Below, one piece after another: positions 16,348 through 39,694 of a stretch of 39,694 nt of DNA (its first letter is position 1; each line of letters opens with the position of its first letter). The position numbers and the translations under genes were made by a program. The stretch covers positions 1-39,694 of the forward strand of contig JAKLEH010000005.1 in assembly GCA_022703155.1 (NCBI GenBank), read 5' to 3'. The stretch is from Patescibacteria group bacterium (GTDB lineage Bacteria; Patescibacteriota; Patescibacteriia; 2-12-FULL-60-25). The notes beneath the pieces are model-generated. The model saw only the letters and a list, made by a program, of their open reading frames with translations. It had not been told where the DNA came from and ran no database searches.

Positions 16348-17169
16348 GTGTACAAGCAACGTCTCGCCGATGCGCCGTACAACGAAGCCCATCCCACCTT
16401 CAAACTCATCGCGGACCGCGTGCCGCGCGACTTGGCCAAGGCCATGCGCGACGACCCGAGCATCGTGGATTCCATGGTGCGCGCGGGCCGATCGCGCCTC
16501 AACCTGGCCCATAATCGCTACATGCGGATTGATGACCAGCGGACGTTCTGGCAGAGGGTTAACCGCGACATGCAGTGGGGTTTGGACGAGAACGAGCTAA
16601 TCCGCGTCGCGGGGGACGCGTCGCGGAACTTCAAGCCCGAATGGAACGATGAAGACATCGCTTTGGTCATCGTGCCGCGTTTGCCCTCGGTGGATCCCAA
16701 GATGCCCGGCGTGAAGCGTACGTTCTTGGCGCTTTGGGAGCTGGCGCGACGCAACATGGCCAGCGGTACCATGGGCGGCATCTACCAGGATTACGGAGTC
16801 AAAACGTGCTATTACACCAACAAGCCCATCCTGACGGACGGCAATCCATACCGCCCGGGATTCAGCCTCGAGGTGATTCGTTGGACCAAATTGGTCAAAA
16901 AATCATCGCGGTACGTGACCGGAGCGGTGGTGAACAATGGCGACAGGCCCGTGGACGCCGGCGGTCTGGCATGCGCCGTGCTCCATCCTGATTGGCTGCG
17001 CCAGTACATCTGCATCGAGCCTGTGAAGCTGACGGGTTACGGCATCAACGTCGCGTCTTCGGACGAAGAGGACGCCATACCCGTCCTGACTTACTACGGT
17101 GACGACGAAGATCGCATCGTGCTCGACCTTGTCCGTCGCTTCTACGAGGACGCTTGCATCGACACGTGA
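16348..17169 (+). CDS. hypothetical protein with consensus promoter and SD
   Basis: The product is 273 aa, from GTG 16348 with AGGAG 9 bp upstream. I do not recognise the family. It appears soluble, alpha/beta, with an N-terminal helical part (FKLIADRVPRDLAKAMRDD) and later strand-rich parts with conserved-looking acidic and Cys residues. It has no signal peptide or membrane helix. The C-terminus is strongly acidic (SSDEEDAIP, GDDEDRIVLD). Codon choice (ATC, CTC, GAG, GTC) resembles the SD-led genes at 4286 and 21398-23420. It is a single-gene unit with its own promoter and terminator. Confidence 0.75.
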   Translation: MYKQRLADAPYNEAHPTFKLIADRVPRDLAKAMRDDPSIVDSMVRAGRSRLNLAHNRYMRIDDQRTFWQRVNRDMQWGLDENELIRVAGDASRNFKPEWNDEDIALVIVPRLPSVDPKMPGVKRTFLALWELARRNMASGTMGGIYQDYGVKTCYYTNKPILTDGNPYRPGFSLEVIRWTKLVKKSSRYVTGAVVNNGDRPVDAGGLACAVLHPDWLRQYICIEPVKLTGYGINVASSDEEDAIPVLTYYGDDEDRIVLDLVRRFYEDACIDT

Positions 17170-35479: not shown

Positions 35480-35833
35480 ATGAATTCTAATCAGGATTTT
35501 GGTCGGCGCGGCGAGGATATGGCCGCGTCTTTTTTTATCCAACAAAAATACCAAATCGTGGAACGCAATTGGCGCTGCCGGTTTGGCGAAATCGACCTGA
35601 TCGTGAAACGGGACGGCGAATGGCGTTTTGTGGAAGTCAAAACGCGTTCGGGCGCGGCCTTTGGGCATCCCGAAGAGGCGGTCACGCCTGCCAAGCGCGA
35701 ACATATGTATCGCGCCATCGAAATTTACGCGCAGGCCAGGGGCATTAGGCCGGCCCAAATCCATGCGGACGTCTTAGCCATCGTTTTGAACGCCAAGGAG
35801 TTCGATGTGCGTTGGATTAAGGATGCGGGTTGA
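35480..35833 (+). CDS. UPF0102/YraN-family endonuclease-like protein
   Basis: The product is 117 aa. The family pattern is complete: GRRGEDMAASFF, VERNWRCRFGEIDLI, WRFVEVKTRSG with the restriction-endonuclease-like E-x-K, and AFGHPEEAVTPAKREHM. YraN proteins have a PD-(D/E)XK fold and are thought to act in DNA metabolism; the physiological role is unsettled. ATG 35480 lies right after a word repeat, with no SD. The stop overlaps TTGACT, the possible -35 of the downstream candidate RNA. Confidence 0.92.
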   Translation: MNSNQDFGRRGEDMAASFFIQQKYQIVERNWRCRFGEIDLIVKRDGEWRFVEVKTRSGAAFGHPEEAVTPAKREHMYRAIEIYAQARGIRPAQIHADVLAIVLNAKEFDVRWIKDAG

Positions 35834-35864
35834 CTTTTTTCGTAAGAAGAGGCATGTTTTAATT

Positions 35865-36077
35865 GAAGGAGGCGCAAAATGTGGAGCTGACGGTTTAGCC
35901 GGCAAATCCGGCATAAGTTCCATATTGCACGACAAACGTCGTGAGTCCGAAGAATCCGCGCACCCTTCGTAGCTTCGGCTACGCCGTCAAATCCCGTAGG
36001 GCGCTTAGGCGCCACCCCAAGCCGGTAACCAATCCGGTTTGCCTCCAGGCCCCGCTCGCTCGGGGCCGTTCTAATTT
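35865..36077 (+). ncRNA. candidate structured RNA of about 200 nt with terminator
   Basis: TTGACT (35830-35835) plus a 17-bp spacer and weak CATGTT predicts a start near 35865. The segment then folds locally. Closing stem GGAGG-cg-CAAA (35868-35878) pairs with TTTGCCTCC (36038-36046). Inside are GGAGCT/AGTTCC (35883-35888/35916-35921) enclosing GCCGG/CCGGC; CACGAC-aaac-GTCGTG; CGTAGC-ttcg-GCTACG; GGCGC-ttag-GCGCC; and GCCGG/CCGGT. GACGG (35889-35893) is complementary to CCGTC (35984-35988), a possible pseudoknot. I find no RNase P, tmRNA, SRP or known riboswitch motif. A perfect SD with ATG-TGG-AGC-TGA (35879-35890) overlaps the 5' part. Confidence 0.5.
36048..36077 (+). terminator. terminator of the candidate RNA
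   Basis: GGCCCCG-ctcgct-CGGGGCC followed by GTTCTAATTT. Confidence 0.65.
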
Positions 36078-37174
36078 CAATGGATGAACATGGCGTCGCC
36101 GAACGAGAAGAAGCGATAACCGTCGGCGATCGCTTGGCCGTAAGCGTCCAGCATGAATTTTCGTCCCGCGTCCGGTTCCTGCATTTTGGTCTGCGCGAAA
36201 GCGGACACGAGCACGAGCAACGTGGATTCCGGCAAATGGAAGTTGGTGATGAGCGCGTCGATTTTTTTAAAGGCAAAGCCGGGCGTGATGAAGATTTTGG
36301 TAAAGCCGTGTTGCGTATCTGACTCCAAGGCGCGGACCGTGGTCGTGCCCACGGCGATGACACGGCCGCCTTGTTTTTTCGTCCGTTTGATCGCGGCCAT
36401 GGTCTCGTTGGGCACATCGATCCATTCCTCATGCATCACATGGTCCTCCACGTTTTCGGTTTTCATGGGCCGGAAAGTCCCGAGCCCCACATGCAGCGTC
36501 ACGGTCGCGAATTCGATGCCTTTGGCCTTTAGCTTTTCGATCAATTCGGGCGTAAAGTGGAATCCCGCGGTGGGCGCCGCAGCCGAACCGACGCGCGACG
36601 CATAAACCGTTTGGTAGTCTTCGGGGTCCGTGGGCGCGCGTTCGACGTACGGGGGCGTCGGCACCTCGCCGTGCGCATCGGTGAAAGAGAATACTTCATC
36701 GACCGTCAGGCCGAATGAAAGTTTGACGGTTCCGTCGTCCATTTTTTCCGCGACGGTCGCCGAGACGTCGGACGTGAAGTCGAGCGTGTCGCCAACGGCA
36801 AGTTTGCGACCGGGTTTGGCCAAAGCGATCCAAACGTCGCCCTCGGGCCGAAGGAGAAAGATTTCAAAGGTTGTTTTTTCGTCATGCCGAACTGGGTTCG
36901 GCATCTCTGGTTGATTTGCTTGAGATCCTGAAACAAGTTCAGGATGACGGATCGTGGTTTTTATAGAATGTAATCTCGCCCTAAACACCTTGCTGTCGTT
37001 GGCCACGAGCAAATCGCCGGGTCGGAGGAAGTCGGGCAACTCGAAAAAGCGCGCCTCTTGGATGCGGCGGGTGGCCGGTTCCAACACCATGAGCCGCGAG
37101 CTGTCGCGCGGCTTGGCCGGCGCTTGGGCGATGCGCTCCGGCGGCAATTCGTACCAAAAATCCTTGGTTAACAT
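36077..37174 (-). CDS. queA: S-adenosylmethionine:tRNA ribosyltransferase-isomerase
   Basis: QueA transfers the ribosyl part of SAM to preQ1 in tRNA, giving epoxyqueuosine. The 365-aa protein shows FWYELPPERIAQ, PGDLLVANDSKVFRARL, TAGFHFTPELI, TLHVGLGTFRPM, HEEWIDVP, GRVIAVGTTTVRALES and ITNFHLPESTLLVLVSAF. Residues about 76-99, between ARL and FEIFLLRPE, are encoded by a 70-bp palindromic repeat element (reading RHPELVSGS and MPNPVRHDE), an in-frame insertion of about 24 residues relative to ordinary QueA. Core motifs are intact, so function is probably kept. The start ATG 37174 fits the family N-terminus. No other queuosine genes are in the window, so preQ1 may be scavenged. Confidence 0.95.
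   Translation of the reverse strand: MLTKDFWYELPPERIAQAPAKPRDSSRLMVLEPATRRIQEARFFELPDFLRPGDLLVANDSKVFRARLHSIKTTIRHPELVSGSQANQPEMPNPVRHDEKTTFEIFLLRPEGDVWIALAKPGRKLAVGDTLDFTSDVSATVAEKMDDGTVKLSFGLTVDEVFSFTDAHGEVPTPPYVERAPTDPEDYQTVYASRVGSAAAPTAGFHFTPELIEKLKAKGIEFATVTLHVGLGTFRPMKTENVEDHVMHEEWIDVPNETMAAIKRTKKQGGRVIAVGTTTVRALESDTQHGFTKIFITPGFAFKKIDALITNFHLPESTLLVLVSAFAQTKMQEPDAGRKFMLDAYGQAIADGYRFFSFGDAMFIH
36881..36950. repeat. 70-bp palindromic element inside queA, in frame
   Basis: It runs from cgtcatgccgaactgggttc to aacaagttcaggatgacg, the same length and plan as 21296-21365. The queA frame stays open through it. Confidence 0.85.
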
Positions 37175-37176
37175 GG

Positions 37177-37223
37177 GCCGTAACGTACCACGTACTTCGT
37201 ACAACGTACAACGTACCGCCGGG
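37177..37223. repeat. intergenic word repeat (acgtac type)
   Basis: gtaacgtaccacgtacttcg followed by tacaacgtacaacgtacc, between the divergent queA and rpmE. Confidence 0.7.
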
Positions 37224-37264
37224 AGGCCGTGGCTCTTGCCAATCCGGGCGGCTTTTGCTAACGT

Positions 37265-37582
37265 ATGCCCGTTATGAAAGCGGATATCCATCCCCAATAT
37301 TACCCGGACGCCAAAATCGTTTGCGCTTGCGGCAACGAGGTGACCGTGGGTTCAACCGTGAAAACCATTCACGTTGAATTGTGTGCCAAGTGCCATCCGT
37401 TCTATACGGGTACGCAAAAACTGGTCGACACCGAACGCCGCGTGGAAAAATTCAAGGAAAAGGCGGTCAAGAAGGCGGCCAAGACCAATGTCGGAGGCAA
37501 GAAGGCCAAAACGGCCAAGCGCGCCGCGGCCAAAGCCGAGAAACGCGCGGCCAAGCAACCCACCCAGTTGGTGGAAGCTTAG
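37265..37582 (+). CDS. rpmE: 50S ribosomal protein L31
   Basis: The product is 105 aa. The core MKADIHPQYYPDAKIVCACGNEVTVGST, then HVELCAKCHPFYTGTQKLVDTERRVEKF, is a typical zinc-binding (C+) L31 with Cys20, Cys22, Cys40 and Cys43. About 40 residues of Lys/Ala-rich tail extend past the usual ~70-aa length, as in several CPR and actinobacterial L31s. The start may be ATG 37265 (ATGCC class) or ATG 37274, which gives the canonical MKADIHP. No SD at either. It is divergent from queA and upstream of prfA, a common L31-RF1 neighbourhood in bacteria. Confidence 0.95.
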   Translation: MPVMKADIHPQYYPDAKIVCACGNEVTVGSTVKTIHVELCAKCHPFYTGTQKLVDTERRVEKFKEKAVKKAAKTNVGGKKAKTAKRAAAKAEKRAAKQPTQLVEA

Positions 37583-39298: not shown

Positions 39299-39352
39299 CC
39301 GTTGATTGTCTTGTACGACGATCCAAAAAAATCTGTCCGAAGGAGGACGGGC

Positions 39353-39694
39353 ATGAAAAACAAAATCATCGAACCTTTCATCCAAATCGCCGCCATTGTC
39401 TTGTCCGTATCGTTCTACGCCGCTTGCACGCTCGACACCATGGGGTGCGGCGCTCCGCCGGACGTATATTTTCCGGATGGTCTGGAGGATGCGCAGCCGG
39501 AGGCCGCTTTGCCTGAATCGGCAACCGAACCCCAGCCTGAAACCGGTCCCGAGCCCCAGCCAGAAGCAGGGCCGGAACCCCAACCCGAAGCGGGTCAAGA
39601 GCCTCAACCTGAACCCCAGCCAGAAGCCGGTCCTGAGCCGCAGCCTGAAGCCGGGCCTGACGCCATCGCGGACGCGCCCGAAGAGCCGATTACT
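39353..39694 (+). CDS. repeat-rich lipoprotein, N-terminal part (partial, runs off window)
   Basis: 114 codons are present, open to the window edge. A basic start (MKNKIIEPF) and hydrophobic stretch (IAAIVLSVSFYAAC) give a lipobox-like YAAC cleavage site with Cys25, so the protein should be lipid-anchored outside the membrane. After CTLDTMGCGAPPDVYFPDG comes a Pro/Glu/Gln repeat built from EPQPEAGP-like units at about 57-100, an extended negatively charged stalk. AAGGAGG precedes the ATG. Repeat copies use different synonymous codons, so they are selected at the protein level or old. Downstream domains are unseen. Confidence 0.85.
   Translation, partial: MKNKIIEPFIQIAAIVLSVSFYAACTLDTMGCGAPPDVYFPDGLEDAQPEAALPESATEPQPETGPEPQPEAGPEPQPEAGQEPQPEPQPEAGPEPQPEAGPDAIADAPEEPIT

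Follow-up and report, generated by a model that had tools for sequence, protein, structure and literature searches.

The window, a 39,694-nucleotide stretch of DNA from the 1.23-Mb genome (55 contigs, G000) of an ultra-small, uncultured Patescibacteria member, includes a gap of about 245 bases (~35834-36077) between the convergent genes yraN and queA. According to the ORF calls, no ordinary-size protein gene lies at 35834-36076, which agrees with the more than 200 bp of gene-free DNA described in an earlier note. Within this gap, a hairpin-rich stretch of ~210 bases forms the candidate RNA element. Orthologs of the flanking genes are widespread, with yraN found in 91 and queA in 70 of 96 relatives. 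The element itself is present as a single copy in its own genome, so that a multi-copy repeat was ruled out (repeat search, E <= 0.001). At the window end (39302-39694), an open frame with Pro/Glu/Gln/Ala-rich repeats (PEPQPEAGPEPQ...) runs off the sequence, and an AAGGAGG at 39340 stands ahead of an in-frame ATG. The features of the junction are as follows:

35480-35833, plus strand: yraN (UPF0102-type), ORF of the upstream neighbour, with its TGA stop inside TTGACT
35830-35835, plus strand: TTGACT, possible -35 hexamer that takes in the yraN stop
35853-35858, plus strand: CATGTT, possible -10 hexamer (17-nt spacer, 3/6 matches)
35858-35863, plus strand: TTTAAT, possible -10 hexamer (22-nt spacer, 5/6 matches)
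35866-35872, plus strand: AAGGAGG, perfect Shine-Dalgarno (SD) sequence, complement of CCTCCTT in the 16S 3' tail (...CACCTCCTTTCT)
35868-35873, plus strand: GGAGGC, 5' arm of the closing stem, overlapping the SD
35874-35928, plus strand: compound hairpin GCAAAATGTGGAGC / GTTCCATATTGC, alternative to the nested TGACGG helix, with inner GCCGG/CCGGC at 35898-35912
35879-35890, plus strand: micro-ORF ATG TGG AGC TGA (MWS, three codons)
35888-35893, plus strand: TGACGG, 5' arm of P2 (internal helix or pseudoknot)
35928-35943, plus strand: hairpin CACGAC-AAAC-GTCGTG
35968-35983, plus strand: hairpin CGTAGC-TTCG-GCTACG
35984-35989, plus strand: CCGTCA, 3' arm of P2 (internal helix or pseudoknot)
36000-36013, plus strand: hairpin GGCGC-TTAG-GCGCC
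36019-36040, plus strand: hairpin AAGCCGG-N8-CCGGTTT
36041-36046, plus strand: GCCTCC, 3' arm of the closing stem, just ahead of the terminal hairpin
36048-36067, plus strand: GC hairpin GGCCCCG-CTCGCT-CGGGGCC, weak terminator with tail GTTCTAATTT
36077-37297, minus strand: queA, ORF of the convergent neighbour

The 180-base core (35868-36047) is more stable than its base composition accounts for, with a minimum free energy of -74.8 kcal/mol and a z-score of -4.3; none of 200 shuffled sequences folded as well, and the plus strand out-folds the minus strand (z -2.3). Among 180-nt intergenic windows sampled from this genome, 30 of 254 (about 12%) reached a z-score of -4.0 or lower. Local hairpins with at least 5 Watson-Crick pairs are in excess, both in the core (4 against 0.95 expected, p 0.024) and when the terminator hairpin is included (5 against 1.24, p 0.01). 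The hairpins reported before do exist, with the C(UUCG)G hairpin at 35968-35983 and others at 35898-35912, 35928-35943, 36000-36013, 36019-36040 and 36048-36067. When the sampled intergenic windows were compared, perfect hairpins were equally numerous at, among others, the RNase P locus and tRNA loci.

Long-range pairing is less distinctive. The element contains seven long-range helices of at least 6 bp against 3.1 expected (p 0.04). Neither the closing stem nor the GACGG/CCGTC helix is individually significant: chance alone would give about three long-range helices of 6 bp, and no long-range helix in the core is as long as 7 Watson-Crick bp. The closing stem had been described as 9 bp long; the GGAGGC/GCCTCC pairing is there, but it amounts to 6 contiguous bp, with AAA/TTT added beyond a bulge, and a stem of this size is expected by chance. 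The GACGG/CCGTC helix, proposed as a pseudoknot, is nested in the minimum free energy fold (-74.8 kcal/mol), and no pseudoknot is required. Only with the compound hairpin in place, which can form, would the helix turn into a pseudoknot; the corresponding fold has -73.5 kcal/mol, which is 1.3 kcal/mol worse before any gain from the pseudoknot.

The promoter and terminator signals are weak. The TTGACT hexamer of the previously proposed TTGACT-N17 promoter is present, but the -10 candidate at this spacing, CATGTT, matches only three of six positions, and the better TTTAAT stands 22 nt from TTGACT. Neither option makes a good promoter, and a promoter scan returned no sites. In three same-genus genomes (G002, G003 and G005), a TTGACA -35 hexamer includes the yraN stop codon at a position identical to that of TTGACT and is followed by a 17-nt spacer; in G003, TTTAAT is found at this 17-nt spacing. 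At the other end, the predicted GC-rich terminator does have a strong hairpin at 36048-36067, but its T tract is broken, and the single site from the terminator scan compares with 1.3 expected by chance.

Two features were missed in the earlier note, namely the SD sequence with its ATG and three-codon ORF at the 5' end of the element, and the small-ORF units that relatives carry at this junction. The AAGGAGG-N6-ATG arrangement (35866-35881) is a strong SD at 4-11 nt before an ATG on the plus strand of the junction. Across the whole 39.7-kb window and both strands, only 0.25 occurrences of AAGGAGG-N4-9-ATG are expected, and with a looser SD set the SD-ATG pair at this junction has a p of 0.02. 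Genes of this genome seldom carry such a sequence: in the sampled part, a 7-nt SD precedes two and a 6-nt SD seven of 172 predicted genes (9/172 with at least 6 bases). In the sampled noncoding DNA of the genome, seven overlapping pattern hits to SD-led tiny ORFs (3 sites) were counted against 2.6 hits expected. Such ORFs are not significantly enriched genome-wide; it is at the junction, compared across the genus, that an excess is seen. In the closing stem, GGAGGC from the SD base-pairs with the anti-SD-like GCCTCC near the 3' end of the element. Elsewhere in the genome (L096 13392-14795, G000:C1), a good promoter is followed by GGAGGAGGAAGC-ATG GCG ACC TGG TAA TAA (MATW) within a hairpin-rich noncoding region; farther on, the same locus contains a long closing stem ACCGGAACGGG/CCCGTTCCGGT within another leader.

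No Rfam 15 family matched 35600-36300 at E <= 10 (cmscan), in line with the previous remark that no known RNA class is visible, and the whole window contains only 16S rRNA and three tRNAs at the Rfam gathering score. The genome encodes its RNase P (G000:C4:14958-15420) and its tmRNA (L103 17152-17547) elsewhere, so the element is not the only copy of either. Together with the missing Rfam match, this means that no known housekeeping RNA hides in the element. The 6S and small SRP RNA models had no match in this genome. The small SRP RNA model, positive in 13 of 14 control genomes, gave nothing above the cut-off in any of the 38 genomes of the class (G000 and 37 relatives), so that this species is no exception in lacking a match; SRP RNA in these 38 genomes appears, as judged by this model, to be missing or strongly diverged.

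Homologs of the element were likewise not recovered. Blastn against 96 relatives returned short chance hits only, the best of which (G006, E 0.007) lies in an apparent coding sequence and was rejected. With a covariance model, no homolog was found in the 41 genomes that make up the family or in 380 genomes of the class. A hit in G008 (E 2) was discarded as antisense and inside an open frame of more than 1000 codons, and hits in sampled stretches of the element's own genome had E-values of 0.1 or worse. Searches of phages and plasmids gave no homolog, and three exact patterns of the element were absent from viral contigs. A new structured RNA family calls for homologs with compensatory changes, and these searches found none. 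The claim of an undescribed structured RNA consequently holds in that the element belongs to no Rfam family and folds better than its shuffles, but the empty homolog search leaves no family demonstrated.

The junction itself is shared with relatives. In a QueA scan of the genome collection, the nearest named relatives were Patescibacteria MAGs (G001 and G005), followed by a Candidatus Magasanikbacteria MAG, and no strain closer than G001 and G005 was found. yraN and queA are adjacent in all nine same-genus genomes (G000 and eight others, G001-G008) as well as in many further genomes of the family. G006 and G007 have compact junctions of 98 and 54 nt, respectively, against 320-963 nt in G001-G005 and G008. 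We read the long junctions as putative small transcription units, with a promoter, a leader, a strong SD, at least one small ORF and terminator-like hairpins. The ORFs encode, for example, MCVRNN, MMIRHSSK, MAVSSLMNSS or proteins of 65-75 aa. SD-ATG sites occur in seven of the nine same-genus junctions, including that of G000, with 13 sites on the plus (yraN) strand, frequently preceded by a promoter at the stop of yraN, and none on the minus strand; shuffled junctions (n=2000) have a mean of 0.39 sites and at most 3.

Neither blastn nor the covariance model detected sequence homology between the element and the relatives' units at the junction loci. The window also lacks the tail motif (AGTAGCACC...) that is conserved in the second unit of the relatives; a similar AGTAGCACC...TGGAGCCTTTA stretch occurs in G000 at L102, about position 16787. 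At the queA end of the junction, G002 (L037), G005 (L039) and G003 (L040) share a conserved tail with a hairpin, TTCGTCCAAG..TAG.A.CC..ACGCCG...TGGAGCC.TT.CGGCTC...GACCC, which goes with a conserved tiny peptide ending in NSSK or HSSK. SD-led small ORFs starting with MCVR were found at the yraN-queA junctions of G003 (L145, G003:C5) and G005 (L146, G005:C4). A second MCVR locus in G005 (L151, G005:C13) lies upstream of a tRNA-like sequence, behind a promoter and a hairpin leader, and the MCVR ORFs possibly constitute a multi-locus small-gene family.

Taking into account the three-codon ORF with its SD and the small-ORF units of relatives, a small mRNA or micro-ORF transcript is no less likely than an RNA without any coding role. 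As a tentative best explanation, we consider the element a species-specific plus-strand small transcript that fills the junction, a strongly diverged counterpart of the relatives' SD-led small-ORF units; its ribosome-binding site would lie within the closing stem. Such a transcript would start at or just before the AAGGAGG/ATG-TGG-AGC-TGA module, fold into a multi-branched RNA and end at the GC hairpin (36048-36067). The GGAGGC/GCCTCC stem would bury the SD against the anti-SD-like sequence, and since the SD pairs in this stem, the micro-ORF would be readable only with the stem open. Transcription, translation and this gating, together with positional homology and a common descent of the slot contents, are what we infer from the folding, the SD-ATG pair and the genus-wide pattern. 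Counted in favour of the preferred explanation are the z-score, the stronger folding of the plus strand, the rarity of AAGGAGG-N6-ATG, the SD-ATG sites in seven of nine junctions and the TTGACA position; on the other side stand the poor promoter, the chance-size closing stem and an ORF that, with three codons, is too short for a test of coding constraint. Since no relative carries a sequence or structure homolog, homology to the relatives' units is argued from position, SD-ATG and TTGAC only.

The same folding would also fit a purely noncoding structured sRNA, regulatory or protein-binding, that occurs only in this species or in close relatives outside the sample. GGAGG would in that case just serve as an arm of the closing stem, which would make the SD-ATG pair incidental. 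We regard this as possible though on the unlikely side. The z-score of the core, a hairpin count on a par with the RNase P and tRNA windows, a 5'/3' closing stem and a consistent arrangement of several helices speak for it, whereas AAGGAGG-N6-ATG is rare by chance, 12% of the sampled intergenic windows have z <= -4, and the missing homologs deprive the structure of any covariation. Lack of conservation is, on the other hand, what would be expected of DNA with no dedicated function, either the 3' UTR and terminator region belonging to yraN or what is left of a decaying small-gene cassette that once stood at this junction. This explanation, like the noncoding sRNA a close rival though on the unlikely side, agrees with the compact junctions (54-98 nt) of the same-genus G006 and G007, the weak terminator tail, and a weak promoter in which the only good -10 hexamer has a 22-nt spacer, compared to 17 in three relatives; it has more difficulty with a fold better than all shuffles, the excess of local hairpins, and an intact start codon with a perfect SD. 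That the element is a housekeeping RNA (RNase P, tmRNA, 6S or SRP RNA) in diverged form is very improbable. The empty 6S and small SRP RNA models would leave room for one, but RNase P and tmRNA are encoded elsewhere, nothing in Rfam matches at E <= 10, SRP RNA is equally undetected above the cut-off in all 38 genomes searched, and relatives lack the element, although conservation within the genus would be expected of a housekeeping RNA.

Altogether, the element is probably a fast-evolving small transcript rather than a demonstrated new RNA family. A bolder version of the micro-ORF explanation, which we consider doubtful, would make the yraN-queA junction of this Magasanikbacteria-like lineage a conserved site of extremely fast-evolving SD-led micro-ORF transcripts. 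The element would be their extreme three-codon member, its ribosome-binding site gated by the long-range closing stem, possibly with a pseudoknot, and the transcripts would represent an undescribed class in the Candidate Phyla Radiation. If real, the site would show that reduced genomes reserve a fixed position for small transcripts that turn over rapidly; the strong SD of such units would also be conspicuous, given how few predicted genes of this genome have one.

To our knowledge, little has been charted of the small RNAs and micro-ORFs in the Candidate Phyla Radiation, and no papers on them were found among the full-text search results shown. Among known systems, bacterial intergenic sRNAs with a micro-ORF, or dual-function sRNAs, resemble the element as short structured intergenic candidate transcripts with an SD-led tiny ORF; however, its ORF has only three codons, and the element has neither homologs nor an assigned target. 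Leader-peptide or attenuator RNAs share with it the 5' tiny ORF, the SD in a long-range stem and the hairpins before a terminator-like hairpin, but here no regulated gene follows on the same strand, queA being convergent. The units of G001-G005 and G008 lie on the same strand of the same junction with a strong SD before the ATG and, in several of them, TTGAC on or close to the stop of yraN; in contrast to the element, with which they have no sequence similarity, they encode peptides of ~6 to 75 aa, several behind near-consensus promoters. As a single orphan sequence, the element carries limited weight. It is a candidate whose general kind is known, and the more interesting object is the junction as seen throughout the genus.
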